DNA of 64,000 nucleotides from Synechococcus sp. PCC 7336 (GTDB lineage: Bacteria > Cyanobacteriota > Cyanobacteriia > Thermostichales > PCC-7336), in NCBI RefSeq assembly GCF_000332275.1, contig NZ_CM001776.1, positions 930,001 through 994,000 of the forward strand. Direction: 5' to 3'. Position 1 is the stretch's first letter. Each line of letters begins with the position of its first letter. The notes beneath the pieces were generated by a model, which saw only the letters and a list, made by a program, of their open reading frames with translations, ran no database searches and had not been told where the DNA came from. This document shows positions 1 through 11,443 of this stretch, in pieces. The position numbers and the translations under genes were made by a program.

Positions 1-171
1 GTTAATCGTTTCTGGCCGATGCTCAATAATACAGAATTCGTGAGTTTGTTGTTCGACATCATATAAGCAGATGTCGTGTTTACGGTCAGACCAGTCAATA
101 CCAATGTAGGCTGCTTCTGTGGGGCCTGCTGGCGAAGCATTTTGCAAAGAATTGATGATATCCATGTCCAT
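1..171 (-). CDS. IS110-family transposase, N-terminal part (cut by window edge)
   Basis: The reverse strand from 171 reads 57 codons without a stop up to the window edge. The product begins MDMDIINSLQ and contains IGIDWSDRKHDICLYD, the first conserved acidic block of the RuvC-like DEDD domain of IS110-family transposases (recombinases); the Asp of GIDWSD is the expected first catalytic residue. A purine-rich AAGGAAAG sits just before the first ATG, supporting this start over the second Met two codons on. The rest of the gene, including the Tnp_IS110 C-terminal serine domain, is outside the window, so I cannot tell whether it is intact. Family assignment is firm, subgroup (IS110 versus IS1111) is not. 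Confidence 0.85.
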   Translation of the reverse strand, partial: MDMDIINSLQNASPAGPTEAAYIGIDWSDRKHDICLYDVEQQTHEFCIIEHRPETIN

Positions 172-409
172 CTTTCCTTGTTGATGTCACAATAGAGCCA
201 GCTCGGAACCCTTGCCTCTGGCGAAAAGATTATGGAAGGATTCAGTGTATCCTTGCCCTGAGGATTCGTTAGTAGAAAGTAAGGGATTAAGGAGAGAGTG
301 CGATCGCTATGGTTATAGGCATCTTACTGCCAGTCACCGCACAGTCGTCACCCTCTCCCTCCGAGCCTGACATCGAGTCTATCTGACCCCTGCGTGGCTC
401 GTCTCCCCA
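1..409 (-). mobile_element. IS110-family insertion element, transposase-proximal end
   Basis: This comprises the transposase start (1-171) plus about 240 bp of non-coding sequence upstream of it. The right limit is inferred from the neighbouring attC: its sequence is like the other copies from ATTCGCCGC (about 410) rightwards, while the seven-base CCTAAC box that should precede it is replaced by unrelated sequence ending CCCCATA. IS110-group elements have a long non-coding end upstream of the transposase that encodes the bridge RNA, and 172-409 is the right size and place for it. A short hairpin (AAGGAT 236-241 / ATCCTT 249-254) lies there. Element end, subgroup and bridge RNA are inference. 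Confidence 0.6.
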
Positions 410-493
410 TAATTCGCCGCAGCGGATGCTTGGCTAAACTATTGCTCTTCGTTGAGAGTTGATCTAGCACCGCTAACCTCAAGGACGTTAGGC
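410..493 (+). other. attC site A (left box lost)
   Basis: Recombination site of the array's common attC family. The inner arms AGCGGATGCT (421-430) and AGCACCGCT (466-474) pair with one extrahelical A, and the right core box is GTTAGGC (487-493), matching GTTRRRY. The left box expected before 410 is absent (CCCCATA instead of ACCTAAC), apparently because the IS110-family element ends here. The interior differs from sites C, D and K at only a few bases. Confidence 0.7.
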
Positions 494-619: not shown

Positions 620-1942
620 ATGAAAGTGGCTCGCTCCCACGAAAATCTGCTGGAACTCCTACAAAAGAAGGAGCTAGGTGGTGATACCATCTCTGAGGAA
701 GAAATTCTTGAAACGACTGGATGGCAAAAGTCAACTTTCTTAACATATTGGAATAAAGGTCAACTTTCAGATTTTCTGAGTGAAGTTAAGGATGGATATT
801 TTGAAGCCTCTAATTCTATAGACCTTTCTGTTCAAACATTTACACAACTGCTTTCACAAAGTAAGCACAGAAGAGGCTTAGGACACAATTGTAAGTCAAG
901 GTTGGCAAAAGCATTACTCAAGAAATCCAGAGATAATATGCTGTTAGCCCTAGAGCTTTATAATAGGCCTTCTCTGGAAAATAGAATGGATGGCTTTGTC
1001 CTTTGTTTCTGTACCGCTTGGGAACAACTCTTGAAAGCTATCTTGATAGAAGAAAAAGGCGAAGAAGCAGTTTTTAGAAAAAGTCGAAATACTAAAGGAA
1101 TTCGAGAAACTATTTCACTCCGAGATTGCCTAGATAAACTCTACAAAACAGACAATCTGGTTAGAAAGAATATTGAACGAGTTGCATTTTATCGAGATCA
1201 AGCTGTTCATCTTCTAATGCCTGAAGTGCAAGGCATAATGTCCAGGGTTTTTCAGTCTGGTGTTTTGAACTATTCGACTAGATTTCAAGAATTTACTGAA
1301 CTCCCTTTTATTTCATCTACACATTCGGGGATGCTTTCGCTTGTTGGAGATTTAAGACAGCCCTCCATTGCCGCATTGCATAGTAATTACGGTCAAGAAA
1401 TTGGAAATGAAGTTTCTAGCTTAATTGCTGACTTAACGGAAGAAGCTACAAATACGGATGACATTCAGTTCGCTATACCCCTCAATGTAAGACTTGTTTT
1501 TGCTCGAAACGATGAGCAAGGTAATATGATCACTCTGGCAAGAGCGGAAGAGGGAATTGAAGGACTAAAAAAGGCAATTATCCTTGAAAAACCAACAGAC
1601 CGTGACAAAACACATCCCTTCAAAGAAAGCGCCGCAATAAACGAAATCAACAGGAGACTTTATGAACATTATTCAATCAATGTCCTAGCAGATAAACTGG
1701 TTGCCCGTAATAAGATAACTACAAAGCCTGAAATTAACAGTCACTGCTTCCGTTCTGTTGCTGCCAAACTTAAATGGAAAAATAGCAATAATAAATATCA
1801 TTATAAAAACAAAGATCCTGTTATTCACTATTATTCAGATTTTGCCGTTCAAGAGTTTATTGATAAAGTCATGAACATCGAAGGATATTTAGAAAAAGCT
1901 CGGAAAGGCAATTCAAATAAATCTAAGAGAAAAAGAAAGTGA
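620..1942 (+). CDS. DUF3644 / HEPN-like protein in an integron cassette
   Basis: A 440-residue cytoplasmic protein. Residues about 25-60 look like a helix-turn-helix (EEEILETTGWQKSTFLTYWN). Residues about 95-220 match DUF3644: a helical block with NRMDGFVLCFCTAWEQLLKA and then YRDQAVHLL. The R192-x4-H197 spacing fits the catalytic Rx4-6H motif of HEPN ribonucleases, a superfamily common in toxin and abortive-infection systems. The C-terminus is very basic (SNKSKRKRK). No attC lies between it and the next gene 100 bp downstream, so both travel in one cassette (about 494-3303). The A+T-rich coding sequence differs from the core genes to the right and suggests transfer. A role in anti-phage defence is inference; no substrate is known. 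Confidence 0.75.
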   Translation: MKVARSHENLLELLQKKELGGDTISEEEILETTGWQKSTFLTYWNKGQLSDFLSEVKDGYFEASNSIDLSVQTFTQLLSQSKHRRGLGHNCKSRLAKALLKKSRDNMLLALELYNRPSLENRMDGFVLCFCTAWEQLLKAILIEEKGEEAVFRKSRNTKGIRETISLRDCLDKLYKTDNLVRKNIERVAFYRDQAVHLLMPEVQGIMSRVFQSGVLNYSTRFQEFTELPFISSTHSGMLSLVGDLRQPSIAALHSNYGQEIGNEVSSLIADLTEEATNTDDIQFAIPLNVRLVFARNDEQGNMITLARAEEGIEGLKKAIILEKPTDRDKTHPFKESAAINEINRRLYEHYSINVLADKLVARNKITTKPEINSHCFRSVAAKLKWKNSNNKYHYKNKDPVIHYYSDFAVQEFIDKVMNIEGYLEKARKGNSNKSKRKRK

Positions 1943-3216: not shown

Positions 3217-3303
3217 GCCTAACAACCCTGGTGCAGCGGATTGACTAAGGTTGCTTGGATAGGATGTAAAGATCTCGACAACCGCTGACCAGGAACGTTA
3301 GGT
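3217..3303 (+). other. attC site B (canonical)
   Basis: Left box GCCTAAC (3217-3223) and right box GTTAGGT (3297-3303) match RYYYAAC and GTTRRRY. The inner arms CCTGGTGCAGCGGATTG and CAACCGCTGACCAGG pair throughout except for two extrahelical bases, G and A, the hallmark IntI uses to recognise the folded bottom strand. Length is 87 bp. It closes the two-gene DUF3644 cassette. Confidence 0.88.
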
Positions 3304-3393
3304 TTCTGTTTTCCTTAAGTTTTGTGGGTGAAATTAGGAGGTGCTAACCTGCGATCGCCCTAATGGGTTTAGCTACCGCAAGTTGGCCATCAA

Positions 3394-3483
3394 ACCTAAC
3401 TACTCGCTGCAACGGATGCTTGGCTAAACTGTCGCTCTTCGTTGAGAGTCTCTCTAGCACCGCTGACCTCAAGGACGTTAGGT
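3394..3483 (+). other. attC site C
   Basis: Boxes ACCTAAC (3394-3400) and GTTAGGT (3477-3483). Inner arms ACGGATGCT and AGCACCGCT pair around one extrahelical A. It closes the first gene-less cassette of the tandem. Confidence 0.82.
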
Positions 3484-3573
3484 TTCTGCTTAGCTTAAAT
3501 TTTGTGGGTGAAATTGGGAGGTGCTAACCTGCGATCGCCCTAATGGGTTTAGCTACCGCAAGTGGGCCATCAA

Positions 3574-3663
3574 ACCTAACCATTCGCCGCAGCGGATGCT
3601 TGGCAAAACTATTGCTCTTCGTTGAGAGGTTATCTAGCACCGCTAACCTCAAGGCCGTTAGGT
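3574..3663 (+). other. attC site D
   Basis: Boxes ACCTAAC (3574-3580) and GTTAGGT (3657-3663); inner arms AGCGGATGCT / AGCACCGCT with an extrahelical A. Closes the second tandem gene-less cassette. Confidence 0.82.
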
Positions 3664-3753
3664 TTCTGCTGTCCTTAAGTTTTGTTGGTAAAGTTGGGAG
3701 GTGCTAGCCTGCGATCGCCCTAATGAGTTTAGCTACCGCAAGTTGGCCATCAA

Positions 3754-3844
3754 ACCTAACCACTCGCCGCAGCGGATGCTTGGCTAAACTGTCGATCTTG
3801 TGTTGATAGTTAATCTAGCACCGCTAGACTCAAGGCCATTATGC
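3754..3844 (+). other. attC site E (degenerate right box)
   Basis: Left box ACCTAAC (3754-3760) and intact inner arms, but the right box reads ATTATGC (3838-3844) instead of GTTRRRY, so the conserved G at the crossover point has become A. The site may no longer recombine, which would fix the following DUF3800 cassette to its left neighbour. Confidence 0.7.
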
Positions 3845-3904
3845 CGCTGAGTCATTTGTAGGATTGTCACCTAAACGGTATCTTAGGAGGAGCCTCAGAT
3901 GAAG

Positions 3905-3933
3905 TAGGCAATGTGTGGAGCAAGTGATATAAT
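3905..3933 (+). promoter_or_regulatory. Candidate sigma-70 promoter of the DUF3800 cassette
   Basis: TAGGCA (3905-3910), a 17-bp spacer and a perfect TATAAT (3928-3933). Transcription would start near 3940, about 85 nt before the ATG at 4025, giving a leader that contains a predicted stem. Carrying its own promoter would free this cassette from dependence on the integron promoter. Confidence 0.5.
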
Positions 3934-3941
3934 TACGGGCA

Positions 3942-3995
3942 CAGTCAAGAGATCTGACCTTTTCGGATCGTGGGAGCATGGTCTTCCCTTGACTG
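3942..3995 (+). promoter_or_regulatory. Folded leader between promoter and DUF3800 gene
   Basis: An 8-bp inverted repeat, CAGTCAAG (3942-3949) and CTTGACTG (3988-3995), encloses a second stem GATCTGA/TCGGATC (about 3951-3970). Together they would fold nearly the whole leader RNA upstream of the start codon. No T-run follows, so a plain terminator is unlikely. Alternatively CTTGACTG is a palindromic operator half. Not matched to a known riboswitch. Confidence 0.4.
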
Positions 3996-4024
3996 ATTTT
4001 GCTTTTAAAGGGATATGAAGCAGC

Positions 4025-4717
4025 ATGTATCTACTGTACGTAGATGAGTCTGGTACAACCCACGACCCAAATCAACAGTATTTCGTGCTAGCTGGGTTTT
4101 GTGTATTTGAGCGACAAGGATATTGGATTGCTAACCAGCTTGACCAAATTGCAGCTAGGTTTGATCCTGCTGATCCAGCAGCAGTTGAGTTACATGGTAG
4201 CCCAATATTCGGAGGAAGAGGGCGATGGAGGAGTCATCCTAAAGAAGATCGGCATCAAGCGATTGAAGATGCCCTAAAAGTTTTTCTACAATCTCATCCC
4301 AGCAATCGATTGTTTGCAAGCGTGATCAAGAAATCTGCGGTATATCCAAAAGACCCCGTTGAGGCTGCATTTGAGCAGTTAGCCAGTAGATTTGATAAGT
4401 ATTTAATGAGATTGCATAGGAACGGCAACACGCACAGAGGAATCATCATCTTTGATAAATCCACTTATGAGACAACAATTCAATCCTTGGCAACTGATTT
4501 TAGGACGATTGGATACACCTGGGGTGTGATAAGGAACTTTTCAGAAGTACCTCTCTTTTTAGATTCAAAAGCATCAAGACTGATTCAACTTGCTGACTTG
4601 ATTGCATACGCTGTTTTTAGGCATTTTGAAAAGGGGGATAATAGATTTTTCCCTATCATTGAACCTAGATTTGATTCAGAAGGTGGTGTAGTTCACGGAC
4701 TACACATCTTGCAATGA
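4025..4717 (+). CDS. DUF3800 domain protein in an integron cassette
   Basis: A 230-residue protein with the DUF3800 signatures: N-terminal YVDESG (D7, E8), IIIFDKS (D144) and DSKASRLIQLADLIAYA (D180, D191), followed by an HGL motif near the end. The conserved acidic residues at strand ends suggest an RNase-H-like fold and possible nuclease activity; this is a family-level inference, not shown. DUF3800 genes are common in mobile DNA including integron cassettes. It ends 6 bp before attC F, the usual cassette layout, and has a likely promoter and a folded leader of its own. The length is normal for the family and no defects are visible. Confidence 0.85.
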   Translation: MYLLYVDESGTTHDPNQQYFVLAGFCVFERQGYWIANQLDQIAARFDPADPAAVELHGSPIFGGRGRWRSHPKEDRHQAIEDALKVFLQSHPSNRLFASVIKKSAVYPKDPVEAAFEQLASRFDKYLMRLHRNGNTHRGIIIFDKSTYETTIQSLATDFRTIGYTWGVIRNFSEVPLFLDSKASRLIQLADLIAYAVFRHFEKGDNRFFPIIEPRFDSEGGVVHGLHILQ

Positions 4718-4723
4718 GTCGCG

Positions 4724-4810
4724 GCATAACAACCCGGTTGGAACGGACTGCCGAGAGATCTTGGTGATGTTGCAAAGTTTCCTAACAGCCGCTCAACCGG
4801 AACGTTAGGT
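4724..4810 (+). other. attC site F (canonical)
   Basis: Left box GCATAAC (4724-4730), right box GTTAGGT (4804-4810). The inner arms CCGGTTGGAACGGACTG and CAGCCGCTCAACCGG pair with extrahelical bases at the expected places. Length 87 bp. Closes the DUF3800 cassette. Confidence 0.87.
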
Positions 4811-5000
4811 TTCTACTGTCCTTAAATTTTGTGGGTAAAACTGGGAGGTGCTAGCCTGCGATCGCCATAATGGGCTTGGCTGTTGCAAGTCGGCCATCAA
4901 ACCTAACCATTCACTTGACCTTAAGATTTTTGGGTGAAATGGGGAGGTGCTAGGCTGCGATCGCACCATAATTGGATTATCTGTTTTAAGTCGGCCATCA
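4811..5000 (+). repeat. Two gene-less cassette bodies fused by loss of the attC between them
   Basis: Body copy four is at 4811-4900, then ACCTAAC plus six bases (4901-4913), then immediately body copy five (about 4914-5000). All but the first 13 bases of the intervening attC are missing, so a deletion joined two units. Copy five is the most diverged (GGATTATCTGTTTTAAG in place of the usual tail) and is followed by degenerate attC G. Confidence 0.7.
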
Positions 5001-5091
5001 ACTCTAAGCACTCCTGCAGCAGATTCTTGTCAAAACTATCGATTCTCTTTTAAGAGTCGATCTATCACCGCCGAGCTCAAGGCCGTTAGCC
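5001..5091 (+). other. attC site G (decayed)
   Basis: It aligns with the common attC family over its whole length but has lost the consensus at both boxes: ACTCTAAG in place of ACCTAAC (5001-5008) and GTTAGCC (5085-5091) in place of GTTRRRY. The inner arms no longer pair well. Probably an inactive relic. The following 5092-5200 is an unremarkable leader of the next gene pair. Confidence 0.55.
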
Positions 5092-5200
5092 CTAGGGATG
5101 CCAAAGTGACTTCCAGCCTTACAAGTTTTGCATCTCGGCTGGGAATTGGGACATGGGCTGATAAGATTCTGGGCAAGATCTAACCAGCAACTCTCTTTCA

Positions 5201-5548
5201 ATGTCTACTCCAGAAGCACTTGATGCCCTGATTGCCCAGCTTACTCAGGAACTTGACCAAGTTCAGCAGATTGCCCAACATGGTCTGAAAATCACCTGGG
5301 AAAAACTTCGAGCAACTCCAGATAGTACCGAACTCACTCGATTATTTGCAATTTTCAACAATGTCTCGTTTTTTGCAGAAAACTATAGAGGGCGAATTCA
5401 GACAACGGTAAAAACAATTTCCGAAGCAAACCTAGAAGCAGAACGACTTCAAGACGCTGGTGAGGAGTTAGCAGCCTTACTTGGAGTGACATTAGAGGCT
5501 AAAATGTTGGTAGAGAATTCTGTTCGTCGCTTGAGCAAGCTATCATGA
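5201..5548 (+). CDS. Small helical cassette protein of unknown function
   Basis: A 115-residue protein with no family I recognise. It is predicted to be almost wholly alpha-helical, with heptad-like Leu/Ile/Val spacing (ALIAQLTQELDQVQQIAQ near the N-terminus; ANLEAERLQDAGEELAALL later). There is no signal peptide or membrane segment. Its stop overlaps the next start as ATGA at 5545-5548, so the two genes are translationally coupled. Size and coupling resemble toxin-antitoxin pairs, but no toxin fold is evident. The pair is flanked by decayed attC G and a weak attC candidate, so it forms one cassette. Confidence 0.65.
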   Translation: MSTPEALDALIAQLTQELDQVQQIAQHGLKITWEKLRATPDSTELTRLFAIFNNVSFFAENYRGRIQTTVKTISEANLEAERLQDAGEELAALLGVTLEAKMLVENSVRRLSKLS

Positions 5549-5718
5549 CACAAGTAGAACAAAGCACTGTTGGTCAATCTAAGCTAGAGGAAGTCGTTTC
5601 ATTAGCCGAAGCTGCGGAAGCTAAGATGCAGCTATTTTCTCAACAGGCCGAGGAATTCACAGCCAAGTGGGAGCAAACCGTTAGCCAACATAATAGCTCA
5701 CATCAGGCTAATGCTTAA
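5545..5718 (+). CDS. 57-residue acidic partner protein in the same cassette
   Basis: ATG 5545 to TAA 5718, overlapping the stop of the upstream gene by four bases. The product starts MTQVEQSTVGQSKLEEVV and ends HNSSHQANA; it is rich in Glu, Gln and Ala and probably a single long helix. The stop codon overlaps a GCTTAAC box at 5713-5719, the typical way a cassette gene runs into its attC. Function unknown. Coupling with the 115-residue protein suggests that the two act together. Confidence 0.55.
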   Translation: MTQVEQSTVGQSKLEEVVSLAEAAEAKMQLFSQQAEEFTAKWEQTVSQHNSSHQANA

Positions 5719-5804
5719 CCCTGTACTACAAGGGATGCTCAATTCATACGTTGCCTGCTTGAATTTTAGATTGTCTTTCGCGCCTCTGAGCACCACCGTT
5801 AGGT
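5713..5804 (+). other. Weak attC candidate H
   Basis: Boxes GCTTAAC (5713-5719) and GTTAGGT (5798-5804) fit the consensus and are 92 bp apart, and the next cassette body begins right after 5804, as it does after sites B, C, D and F. The inner arms do not pair convincingly, so this site is either highly diverged or damaged. A small AATTCA/TGAATT hairpin lies in its middle. Confidence 0.4.
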
Positions 5805-5894
5805 TTCTGCTGAGCTTAAATTTTGTGGGTGAAATTGGGAGGTGCTAACCTGCGATCGCCCTAATTGGTCTAGCTATTGCAAGTTGGCCATCAA
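5805..5894 (+). repeat. Gene-less cassette body, sixth copy
   Basis: Nearly identical to the copy at 3484-3573, with the same core GGGAGGTGCTAACCTGCG and tail GGCCATCAA directly before the ACCTAAC box. It forms a 180-bp cassette with attC I, so the same unit occurs on both sides of the DUF3800 and small-gene cassettes. Confidence 0.75.
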
Positions 5895-5984
5895 ACCTAA
5901 CCATTCGCTGCAACGGATGCTTAGCAAAACTGTCGCTCTTTGTTGAGAGATTATCTAGCACCGCTGAGCTCAAGGACGTTAGGC
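5895..5984 (+). other. attC site I
   Basis: Boxes ACCTAAC (5895-5901) and GTTAGGC (5978-5984); inner arms ACGGATGCT / AGCACCGCT with an extrahelical A. Ninety bp, same family as A, C, D and E. The Fic cassette begins after it. Confidence 0.82.
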
Positions 5985-6113: not shown

Positions 6114-7331
6114 ATGCCATCCTTTACTAAGAAAGCAGAACGGGCAGGGCAGTGGGTGTGGCAGGGCAGTGGTGAAACTTCTTATGAGGCCTTTATTCCT
6201 GCGCCTTTACCACCTGTTCCAGCAATTACGGTAGACTCAGCGCTTCAGCGACAGCTTGAAGCTGCCGGGTTGGCCTTAGGGCGACTTGATGGGATTGGGC
6301 GACTACTACCAGGGCCAGAAGAACTTCTATACAGTTACATCCGGAAGGAAGCTGTGCTGTCAAGCCAGATTGAGGGAACTCAGTCATCCATTGCTGATTT
6401 GCTTCTGCATGAGAATCAGTCAATGCCGGGAGTTGTATTGGAAGATGTTCAAGAGGTTTCCAATTACATCGGTGCATTGGGCTATGGCATTGATCGCCTT
6501 TCGACGCTGCCGCTCAGCTTACGCCTGATTCGCGAGTCTCATGAACGACTTGTCCGTGGCACTCGTGGCGATCGAAAGGCACCTGGAGAGTTCAGACGTT
6601 CCCAGAACTGGATTGGGGGAAGTAAACCCAGTGATGCCATGTTTGTGCCACCTCCCCCCCATGAGTTACCAGACATACTCAGTGCGTTCGAAAAATTTCT
6701 CCATTCTACGGAGTATCCTGTTTTGCTCAAGGTAGGGCTTGCACACGCGCAATTTGAGACAATTCACCCCTTTCTTGACGGCAATGGTCGAGTAGGTCGT
6801 ATGCTCATAGCACTTATGCTTGTTGCAGAAGGAGTATTGGAAAGGCCGTGGCTTTATGTGAGCCTTCATTTTAAAAAGCACCGTGACAAGTATTATAGTC
6901 TTCTTCAAGACGTAAGAACCCAAGGAAATTGGGAAGAGTGGCTTGTATTTTTCCTTGAAGGTGTTACCGTCACTGCCAATCAAGCTACAGATAAGATCCG
7001 TGCTCTAATGGCCCTCTTTGAGCGAGATCGGAAAGTAGTAGAGCAGTCGCGGAAAGGCTCGATTTACCAGTCAGTTGCAGTGCAGTCAAACTTGACAGTC
7101 TACGATTACTTAAAGAAAAGGATCGCAATCCGGATTCCTGAAACTGCAGAAGCCTGTGGAACAACGAAGCCAACTGTTAAACGTGCTATCGACGATCTTC
7201 AAAAACTTGGTATCGTGACCGAGGCAACAGGTAAACCCAGGAATAAAGTGTATATCTATACAGAGTACCTAGATATTTTGAATCAGGATGACGGCACCTC
7301 TAAACTATCGAATGAACGCAGTAATGAGTGA
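6114..7331 (+). CDS. Fic-family AMPylase-like protein with C-terminal winged helix
   Basis: A 405-residue protein. Residues 218-229 read HPFLDGNGRVGR, the complete Fic active-site motif HPFx(D/E)GNGRxxR, so adenylyl (or other nucleotidyl) transfer to a hydroxyl side chain is possible. An N-terminal inhibitory helix carries SSQIEG (S83 to E87), the (S/T)xxxE(G/N) motif of class II Fic proteins, which blocks ATP until relieved. Residues about 335-385 form a DNA-binding winged helix (ETAEACGTTKPTVKRAIDDL). The architecture is that of the widespread Fic/DUF4172-like regulators. It sits in its own cassette between attC I and attC J; repeated CTTTACT motifs upstream suggest autoregulation. The target is unknown. 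No defects seen. Confidence 0.9.
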   Translation: MPSFTKKAERAGQWVWQGSGETSYEAFIPAPLPPVPAITVDSALQRQLEAAGLALGRLDGIGRLLPGPEELLYSYIRKEAVLSSQIEGTQSSIADLLLHENQSMPGVVLEDVQEVSNYIGALGYGIDRLSTLPLSLRLIRESHERLVRGTRGDRKAPGEFRRSQNWIGGSKPSDAMFVPPPPHELPDILSAFEKFLHSTEYPVLLKVGLAHAQFETIHPFLDGNGRVGRMLIALMLVAEGVLERPWLYVSLHFKKHRDKYYSLLQDVRTQGNWEEWLVFFLEGVTVTANQATDKIRALMALFERDRKVVEQSRKGSIYQSVAVQSNLTVYDYLKKRIAIRIPETAEACGTTKPTVKRAIDDLQKLGIVTEATGKPRNKVYIYTEYLDILNQDDGTSKLSNERSNE

Positions 7332-8994: not shown

Positions 8995-9432
8995 ATGATT
9001 ACAGCTTTGGAGAAAGATCGCGATATCACCGTTTCAAATCGGGTAAAGATTAGTTTCTATGTGATTTCCATCGTTTTTAACGTTTGCTTAATTGCTCAGG
9101 TATTAACGGTTGGCGTTGCCTACTTTAGCGATCCTGCCTGGTGGACTATTCATGTGTGGCTCGTGCGAGGGTATGGCGGACTATCGCTGATATTGTTGGC
9201 AGGAGCATTAATGGCTCCATTCTCAAACAGAGTTCGATCGCTTGCTGTCAGTCTACCGGTGCTGCTGGGACTTCAGTTTTGCAGTATCCATCTGAAAACT
9301 TCGCTTCACTTAGAGGTGCTGCATCCTCTCATTGGCTTCACGTTGTTCTATGTTTCTTCAAGCCTCGTACACCGTGTATCGCGTGAGTACATGAAACAGG
9401 GAGGTGAAAAGAGCGCAGCAAAATCGGGATAG
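8995..9432 (+). CDS. DUF6220-like membrane protein, 3' end overlapped by a group II intron
   Basis: A 145-residue protein with four predicted membrane helices (about residues 20-45, 53-75, 83-105 and 108-125), resembling small DUF6220-type proteins. It is cotranscribed with the DJ-1-family gene. The last codons (TCG GGA TAG) lie inside the group II intron whose 3' end I place at 9423, so the original C-terminus and stop have been replaced by intron sequence. The loss is probably small, since the hydrophobic core is complete. No attC follows before the intron, which is unusual for this array. Confidence 0.7.
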   Translation: MITALEKDRDITVSNRVKISFYVISIVFNVCLIAQVLTVGVAYFSDPAWWTIHVWLVRGYGGLSLILLAGALMAPFSNRVRSLAVSLPVLLGLQFCSIHLKTSLHLEVLHPLIGFTLFYVSSSLVHRVSREYMKQGGEKSAAKSG

Positions 9433-11360
9433 GGAGAAGTGTTTAACTCCCCCCTCCCACACCGCCCTGCAAGCGGGTCCGCACAGGGCGGTTCAATATC
9501 GCGGAGCAAACATGAATTGAGGCTATTTCGCATACCCTTGGGCTTTCATCCAAAGGTCGCGAATTGATAGCAATCCCTGCTCTTTTAGCCACTCATTAGT
9601 CATCCCACTGTGCGTCGCCAGCGTTCTTGACAAGCGCCAATAACCTTTACGGCTAAGGCCGGTCAAAATTGCCTGACGCTTAGACGTACCCAACTCCAGA
9701 AGATTACGAATGCGAGTGCGCGCTCGTCGCCACTGTTTCCAGTAGCACATCCGAACCCGCCTCCTCAACCATCCGTCTAACTCTGGAATCGGTTGGTAGT
9801 ATTGCGAGATGCCAAAGTAGCCCATCCATCCTCGCAAGTACTGGTTTAACCGAGTCAGGCGTTCTTCCATTGAGACCCCAACTGCGGGAGGTGAGTCCAC
9901 GCAGTCGATGTTTGAAGTCATCAAAGGCTTTCTGCGACCAATACACCCGCATCCCTCGGAAGCTGAATCCGAGCTCCTCCAATGCTTGGACACTGACCAC
10001 CTGAGATTTCTGCCGATTGACCCGCAGCTTTAACGTTTGGGTCAGATATCGGCTGATACTTGCCATCACTCGCTGACCTGCCCGGATACTTTTGACCAGA
10101 ATGACCAGGTCGTCCATATAGCGGACAAAGCGGTGACCTCGTTTCTCCAGTTCTCGCTCGAGATCGTCCAACAGGATGTTGGCGAGCAAAGGCGATAACG
10201 GAGACCCTTGCGGCGTCCCCAATGCCGTTGCCTGGACGAGGCCGTCCACCATGACGCCTGCCCGCAGGTATCGACCGAGCAGCCGCAGGAGCACTTTGTC
10301 ATGCACCTGCCGCGATACGCGAGCCATCAATACATCGTGCTGCACTGTAGCGAAGAATTTCTCCAAATCCAGGTCAACCGCGATACGATGTCCCGCTTTC
10401 CTGTGGTCTTTTACCTGTGCAATGGCTCCGTGGGCAGAGCGCTTGGGTCGGCTGCCGAAGCTCGATTCCGAAAACTCAGGGTCGAACATCGGCGTTAGCA
10501 CTTGCAAGACAGCTTGCTGGATGAACCGGTCTAGAACACAAGGCACCCCTAGCAATCTGTCTCCTCTGCCTCCCGGCTTGGGGATGACCACCCGGCGCAC
10601 GGGAGCAGGTTGATACGTGCCCTCCAATAGGGATTGGCTGATTGTGGGCCAATGCTTTCGGGCGTAGGCGGGGAAGTCCTCTAAGCTCATCCCGTCACTG
10701 CCGGGTGCGCCTTGGTTGGACTTCACACGCTGCCATGCCTGTCGGACATTGGCGCTCTCCACAACTCGACCCATCAGGTTCAAGCCTAAGGCTGGCTGTA
10801 TGCCGTAACGCCAGTCCGTATCTCCCCCGCTCGGGTTCATTGACACGCCTGAGTTCGTCATGGCTCCTCCTTATGCGACACTGTTCGGTCCTTCACTGCG
10901 ACAGCAGCTACTATGACCTCTGCTGACTTCTGCCCAATGCGGCTGCTGTTGCCAACAGTCGTGCTGTCTGAGTCTCCGTAGGGTCCGGTGGTTTCCCCAT
11001 CTCTTTCGCGATGGACCTCAGTCCGACTCCCATAGATTCCCTGACTGCCCTCGGACAGACCTGCCCGGATAAGAACGTGAACTGTCCCTGCACAACCGCG
11101 CCATTTACCGTGTCCTTTGAACCAGAGGGCTTCGTTGTGTGGTGCCAACTCGCCCCAAGAATCTCGGCCTTCTATGACGTTTCTGTTCGTCGGCTCGCAG
11201 TTTTGCTGCTGGCTTCCTTCAGACATTTCCTCGCGGAAACACCCTTGCCTTAAGCTAGTCGTTGTTGTCTCTCGGCTCCCATGACTTTCGAGCATTTGGA
11301 CTCTGGTTCTCCGACAGGGGACTTTCACCCCATGAGTTCACGCCCATGCCGGGCGTACAC
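9423..11360 (-). mobile_element. Group II intron (probably group IIC), antiparallel to the cassettes
   Basis: On the minus strand the RNA starts GTGTACGCCCGGCATGGG at 11360, a typical group II 5' end, followed by a TGGGGTGAAAGTCCCC element. Domain V lies at about 9460-9494: stem ACCGCCCTG/CAGGGCGGT with CCGC at the triad position, consistent with the CGC triad of group IIC. Domain VI follows and ends CCCGAT at about 9423. Length is about 1.94 kb and it encodes its own maturase. The 5' splice site falls inside attC K, next to where its left box should be. Group IIC-attC introns are known to invade the bottom strand of attC sites, giving exactly this orientation. On the other flank the attC left box is missing, implying a later deletion. 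Confidence 0.8.
9523..10861 (-). pseudogene. ltrA: Group II intron reverse transcriptase/maturase, frameshifted
   Basis: Two overlapping frames together encode one LtrA-type protein of about 430 residues. The first (from ATG 10861) carries the reverse-transcriptase blocks: VVIPKPGGRGDRLLG, ALGTPQGSPLSPLLAN and the catalytic FVRYMDDLVIL. The second, ending at 9523, carries the maturase/X domain (RLNQYLRGWMGYFGI, LRRRVRMCYWKQWRR). The break is in a run of four Gs near 9887, where SRSWG in the first frame should continue as VSMEERL in the second; a net +1 shift (one base gained or two lost) explains it. There is no HNH endonuclease domain, as in group IIC. Recoding or a sequencing error in the G-run cannot be excluded. 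Confidence 0.8.
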
Positions 11361-11443
11361 CACTCGCTGCAACGGATGCTTGGCTAAACTATTGCTCTTC
11401 GTTGAGAGGTTATCTAGCACCGCTAGGCTCAAGGCCGTTATTG
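11361..11443 (+). other. attC site K, interrupted by the intron
   Basis: From CACTCGCTGC (11361) it matches the common attC family: inner arms ACGGATGCT / AGCACCGCT with an extrahelical A, ending GTTATTG (11437-11443). The left box (ACCTAAC) that should precede 11361 is replaced by the intron 5' end. The right box departs from GTTRRRY and reads straight into an aac(3)-I-like coding sequence. Confidence 0.72.

Follow-up and report, generated by a model that had tools for sequence, protein, structure and literature searches.

Introduction

What does a DNA unit without a gene do when it recurs again and again among the gene cassettes of an integron? The question is raised by a stretch of 64,000 nucleotides from Synechococcus sp. 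PCC 7336 (assembly GCF_000332275.1, contig NZ_CM001776.1), called the window here, which covers positions 930001-994000 of a 5.07-Mb genome assembled in one contig. Between positions 3304 and 5984 of the window, we find repeated units of 180 bp, each made of a body of about 90 bp and an attC site of about 90 bp. An earlier note on this DNA had described them as an amplified gene-less cassette, and had proposed a promoter for downstream cassettes or a small RNA as the role of the body. Our analysis indicates that the unit is almost certainly a genuine gene-less integron cassette that was spread by recombination through the integrase IntI. For the whole, we see an even chance that the best explanation is such an IntI-spread cassette with a promoter or leader role.

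Anatomy of the gene-less cassette

The window holds four complete cassettes (at 3304, 3484, 3664, and 5805) and two partial ones (at 4811 and 4910), whose limits are given in Table 1. The cassettes at 3484, 3664, and 5805 are 87-90% identical to that at 3304 over 180 bp, with E values of 1e-57 to 1e-90, and chance is excluded as the origin of the repeat family. All intact copies start immediately 3' of GTTAGGT, in which one base is changed in a few. Their bodies end in CCTAAC and are followed by a 90-bp attC with complementary R boxes, usually with GTTAGGY at its end. The copies are preceded by attC sites of differing gene cassettes, or by attI. Every intact unit is bounded by integron core sites (GTTRRRY) and one attC, as defines a cassette, and this boundary pattern is the signature of an integron cassette rather than that of transposons or simple tandem repeats. 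The attC sites were assigned by homology and boundaries; automated attC scanners were too strict or noisy.

Sequence comparison confirmed the repeats where the earlier note had placed them, four of them as complete units of body and attC, and also the period of 181 bp for the third tandem unit (3664-3844). The two other places, which had likewise been described as body plus attC, needed revision. The attC of the copy at 4811 is lost, and its body leads directly into a second partial body, which does exist, with a start at about 4910 instead of 4914, a truncated 5' end, and a degenerate attC.

Copies across the genome and their mode of spread

About 24 bodies and 23 attC sites were found in the whole genome, with a mean pairwise body identity of 87%, so that the family is multi-copy, as had been claimed, in a number well beyond the six copies first counted. 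The copies are found at three integron loci (928-941 kb, 2575-2589 kb, and 4252-4255 kb). Further copies lie at several integrase-less sites (214, 726-728, 1137, 3071, 3508-3513, 4528, and 4806 kb). There are three intI genes in this one chromosome (genome 927338-928277, 2574022-2575093, and 4251138-4251437), all of them broken: one is frameshifted, one is in pieces with an insert, and one is an N-terminal fragment. One intI remnant flanking copies scores above the cut-off of NCBIfam TIGR02249. The copies at genome 928574 and 2575391 each follow an intI remnant directly, with matching attI regions in between; both recognisable attI sites of the genome have a gene-less cassette in first position.

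The core-site boundaries and the scatter of the copies are the grounds on which we attribute the spread to IntI. In the proposed course of events, IntI recombination would place the cassette at attI and between other cassettes, and the copies would afterwards exchange sequence with one another. The copy at 3664 is nearest to a copy at 2.58 Mb and the copy at 3484 to that at 5805, the tandem pair at genome 2575398/2575578 is merely 86% identical, and bodies often resemble copies at distant loci more closely than the copies in tandem with them. These nearest-neighbour identities rule out in situ tandem duplication as the sole cause. A four-gamete test with 14 full copies found all four combinations in 180 of 378 pairs of biallelic sites, indicating that the copies also exchange sequence, which keeps them alike. 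Together, the two results point to tandem runs built by repeated insertion and exchange; the cassette was amplified, as the earlier note said, though not by simple local tandem duplication. Since all three intI genes are decayed, spread by the resident integrases has probably ended.

The body sequence was not found in 59 relatives, 390 genomes of the class, plasmids, phages, or viral contigs, with no genome of the same family among them. The search for further copies that had been proposed earlier was thus productive within the genome and empty among these relatives. Candidate homologues in GTDB contigs and other organisms were matches of only 18-21 bases, centred on HIP1, and were taken as chance. 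Part of the body also occurs in two near-identical ParE-type toxin-antitoxin cassettes, which lie in reverse orientation at genome 2583320-2584081 and 4253360-4254121. On their attC side stands the 3' half of the gene-less body, a sequence that would form part of the region upstream of the antitoxin-like gene.

Conservation of the body

Sequence diversity among the copies is 0.124 in the body, 0.133 in attC, 0.187 in the attC loop, and 0.061 in a 24-nt core. A 20-nt core, GAGGTGCTARCCTGCGATCG, varies less than the other columns, at marginal significance (p = 0.03-0.05, column permutation). Within it lies the HIP1 octamer GCGATCGC, of which the 64-kb window contains 100 against about 1.3 expected. 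The well-conserved core reported earlier therefore stands in this marginal form only, with HIP1 as a part of it. Because the copies exchange sequence, conservation alone is weak evidence for a function of the body. No coding signal was found in the body: there are stops in the frames, and no frame departs from column-shuffled controls. This agrees with the earlier remark that no reading frame is conserved, and protein coding on either strand was rejected by the frame tests.

A possible promoter or leader role of the body

The balance is about level for the body acting as DNA or as an untranslated leader which gives transcription or translation signals to the cassette behind it. In such a role, the body would supply these signals to whichever cassette was inserted behind, as in Vibrio and Treponema. 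We favour this role on the basis of experimental precedent (PMC11014356, PMC6557892), the interspersion of the copies, their first position, and a fusion with a GNAT gene.

Non-coding cassettes do have precedent, as had been pointed out for Xanthomonas; others are known from Vibrio and Treponema. Most of 30 Vibrio gene-less cassettes showed sense-strand promoter activity (Blanco et al., 2024; PMC11014356). Like the cassettes described here, those of the Vibrionaceae are gene-less, interspersed in the array, and oriented like gene cassettes; they drive transcription experimentally and came from cassettes of 491-666 bp, whereas ours are much shorter and putative promoters at most. Treponema cassettes lacking an open reading frame (ORF) also have promoter activity, and one of them is in first position (Tansirichaiya et al., 2019; PMC6557892). 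The Treponema cassette TMB4 shares with our first-position copies the lack of an ORF and the place at attI, and its promoter activity was measured. However, TMB4 was found as one cassette in an oral metagenome and not as an amplified family. Paralogous non-coding cassettes of Vibrio were described by Boucher et al. (2006; PMC1382264), who already posed the question of promoters versus selfish passengers. These cassettes are likewise non-coding, attC-bearing, and repeated many times in a genome (45 copies in V. vulnificus CMCP6), and they resemble ours, as far as these were searched for, in belonging to one lineage only, in having no visible pseudogene origin, and in the suspicion of gene conversion. 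Close homologues in related species were described for most of the Vibrio families, not all (PMC1382264). The present family differs in being cyanobacterial, in its length of 180 bp, in its first-position copies at attI, and in its dispersed loci around broken integrases.

The surroundings of the copies are consistent with a leader role. In the window, copies precede a DUF3800 cassette, a cassette with a 115-amino-acid ORF, and a Fic cassette, and the first-position copy precedes a DUF3644 cassette. A DarT-type gene begins 12 bases past the attC of one copy, a gap that leaves little room for a promoter of its own. A GNAT gene at genome 4252563 is naturally fused to the 5' part of the body: its ATG directly follows the 5'-terminal 53 bases of the query sequence, core site and GGGAGG included.

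Several points weigh on the other side. Toxin-antitoxin cassettes usually have their own promoters, and the DUF3800 cassette of the window seems to carry its own promoter and a cis-regulatory RNA; such cassettes would have no need of the body. The body is about as diverse as attC, and recent spread together with sequence exchange among the copies would suffice to explain its conservation. First position alone is unsurprising where half of the cassettes in an array are gene-less copies. Sigma-70-like sites are no better than in shuffled sequences, both in this family and in the four other gene-less families described below, so the proposal of a promoter for downstream cassettes draws support from context and none from these sites. 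Such promoters are, according to PMC11014356, not predictable in silico.

Gene-less cassettes in other cyanobacterial integrons

Of 194 sampled genomes of the class, 62 have an IntI that scores above the curated NCBIfam cut-off, and the gene often bears in-frame stops or is truncated. We examined 60 intI regions for repeats beginning at attI. Four other genomes have such repeats, in the form of short cassettes with no conserved gene: G134 (306-308 bp, in two integrons), G184 (213-217 bp), G132 (241 bp), and G086 (135 bp). A common origin of the body with these other families was considered and gave no significant alignment. The G134 unit, in which lengths of 306 and 308 bp alternate, has degenerate internal repeats and a long antisense open frame, and is called gene-less with that caveat. 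In its 308-bp cassette (locus L077, 1177-1482), these repeats number about three and are 55-60 bp long.

Matches to the G184 cassette occur in 32 of the 38 genomes of its family, to which Pseudanabaena galeata CCNP1313 and Pseudanabaena sp. ABRG5-3 belong (the Pseudanabaena family), and relatives of it are at attI in G143, G079, and G030. An alignment of 32 bodies from this family gave no covariation and no coding signal; the conservation of a 40-nt block in them exceeds chance (p = 0.003). For the G134 cassette, 51 matches were counted in its own genome, and 14 of the 42 genomes of its family contain matches. It is found at attI in G121 and, in other families, at attI in G192 and, as a fragment, at attI in G178. 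An array of G003, a genome of the same order as Synechococcus sp. PCC 7336, contains it as well, at 87% identity. The gene-less cassette at locus L060 (7036-7295, array orientation) and that at L077 (1177-1482) are 87% identical across different orders. An identity of 87% across orders suggests horizontal transfer of a non-coding cassette. A relative of the G086 cassette is at attI in G161, from another family.

In total, downstream sequence was usable for about 56 intI loci, and at 14 of them attI is occupied by a recognisable gene-less cassette from one of five families, an estimate based on repeat and homology detection only and with no null model for cassette order. Draft contigs end less than 1.5 kb from intI in 11 of 43 cases on the side of the array and in 2 of 43 on the other (Wilcoxon p = 0.01). 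This excess fits repeats at attI, though other repeats could cause it.

Alternative explanations

Close behind the promoter or leader role ranks a selfish or neutral passenger, a serious possibility that we nevertheless hold to be somewhat improbable. Here, a short and cheap cassette with an efficient attC would be moved often by IntI, with a preference for attI, and its body would have no host function. The cyanobacterial families fit this description well, as their bodies are unrelated and yet all are short, gene-less, and at attI. The equal diversity of body and attC and the exchange of sequence between copies also fit, and for Vibrio the same possibility was raised by Boucher et al. (2006; PMC1382264). 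However, a cassette in 32 of 38 Pseudanabaena-family genomes with an over-conserved 40-nt block (p = 0.003) is much to ask of a passenger, and the GNAT fusion and the spacing before the DarT-type gene point to leader use. Conservation of the body would still be compatible with a selfish cassette if the body aids recombination.

A small regulatory RNA transcribed from the cassette is unlikely. The body is multi-copy and non-coding, and the ORF-less integron cassette of Xanthomonas campestris that encodes Xcc1, as cited in PMC6557892, is a precedent; Xcc1 is presented there as a demonstrated trans-acting small RNA, whereas no RNA signal was found in our family. Among 20 aligned bodies, the covariation analysis that the earlier note had called for gave zero pairs changed on both sides. 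Fold energies were shuffle-like (z-scores between -1.3 and +1.3), the Rfam search gave no match to the body, and terminator-like sites in the bodies were within chance expectation. The independent Pseudanabaena family likewise lacks covariation in its 32 sequences. The small RNA that the earlier note had proposed is not supported, at least as a structured RNA, by covariation, fold energy, or Rfam.

Slightly less probable again is an empty scaffold, that is, a leader and a trailer that remained after a cassette lost its gene and were amplified later. A GNAT gene does stand behind the 5' half of the body (genome 4252563), and a gene or insert stands before the 3' half and attC at genome 2583929, 4253969, and 3512751. 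However, no single gene is flanked by both halves, the junctions vary between fusions, and the fusions appear to stem from the gene-less form rather than to precede it. This origin is compatible with a promoter or leader role. The least probable reading, a hidden antisense peptide from a minus-strand open frame across attC and body that ends at an invariant TAG, is mostly refuted: most length changes lie outside the frame and pN/pS is 0.42 over the 3' body, whereas a stop in attC closes the frame in several copies, there is no conserved start, the third-position excess is not significant (p = 0.14), and no frame departs from column-shuffled controls.

Interrupted attC sites and other features of the window

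Two attC sites that the earlier note had listed as body-less, at 410 and 11361, are in fact attC halves, cut by an IS110-family element and by a group II intron, respectively. The IS110-family element (genome 928678-930411; also 3508084 and 4806075) splits attC sites of the family at a fixed position, and the end seen in the window also abuts an attC half at genome 4806075. The opposite end of the same group II intron comes after body copies at genome 1137362, 2588906, and 4527874, and an end of the intron also precedes an attC half at genome 213972. Group IIC introns associated with attC have been described (PMC7923331), and IS1111-attC elements are named in the literature. We infer that the intron and the insertion sequence of the window belong to these attC-associated groups.

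Table 1. Positions of the cassette copies and neighbouring features in the window
Feature	Position	Strand	Remarks
End of IS110-family element inserted in attC	1..411	-	DEDD transposase at genome 928873-930171
Downstream half of split attC, first-position copy at attI	412..493	+	Body outside window, genome 928581-928676
DUF3644 gene, cassette downstream of first-position copy	620..1942	+	
attC of preceding gene cassette	3217..3303	+	Loop unrelated; terminal GTTAGGT core is the start of cassette 1
Full gene-less cassette 1	3304..3483	+	Body 3304-3393, attC about 3394-3483
Full gene-less cassette 2, tandem	3484..3663	+	
Full gene-less cassette 3, tandem	3664..3844	+	181 bp; attC 1 base longer; final core mutated (ATTATGC)
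Sigma-70-like site upstream of DUF3800-VI motif	3905..3933	+	Predicted by scan; TAGGCA-17-TATAAT, TG before second hexamer
DUF3800-VI RNA motif, leader of DUF3800 gene	3942..3995	+	Rfam RF02915, 40.7 bits (gathering 35)
DUF3800 gene, cassette downstream of copy 3	4025..4717	+	
Body copy 4, without attC	4811..4909	+	
Body copy 5, 5'-truncated	4910..5092	+	Degenerate attC (about 5004-5092; 76%)
Full gene-less cassette 6	5805..5984	+	
Fic-family gene, cassette downstream of copy 6	6114..7331	+	
Group II intron	9432..11360	-	Reverse transcriptase ORF 9704-10861; Rfam D1-D4 matches 10888-10963, 11074-11240
attC half of cassette family adjoining group II intron	11361..11443	+	

Implications for cyanobacterial integrons

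Cassettes of this kind are already known from the paralogous non-coding cassettes of Vibrio and the promoter cassettes of Vibrio and Treponema. What seems new is the cyanobacterial case and the repeated occupancy of attI by unrelated gene-less cassettes; the consistency of their place at attI is unusual for the kind. We found no paper on attI occupancy by gene-less cassettes in cyanobacteria in the literature searched, which excludes most subscription journals. In the same literature, cyanobacterial integrons seem little described, though IntI is common in the class.

The first position of an integron is the arrival site of new cassettes and the place of best expression, so fast turnover would be expected there. 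A tentative and on balance unlikely view is that the gene-less cassette is a quasi-permanent part of the platform of cyanobacterial integrons, which would stay next to attI, be re-copied through the array, and provide the expression signals for which other integrons have a fixed Pc promoter. Different lineages would have recruited unrelated sequences for this part, and a resident cassette could be passed between families. With gene-less cassettes at attI in 14 of about 56 loci, the question of promoter versus selfish passenger becomes testable.

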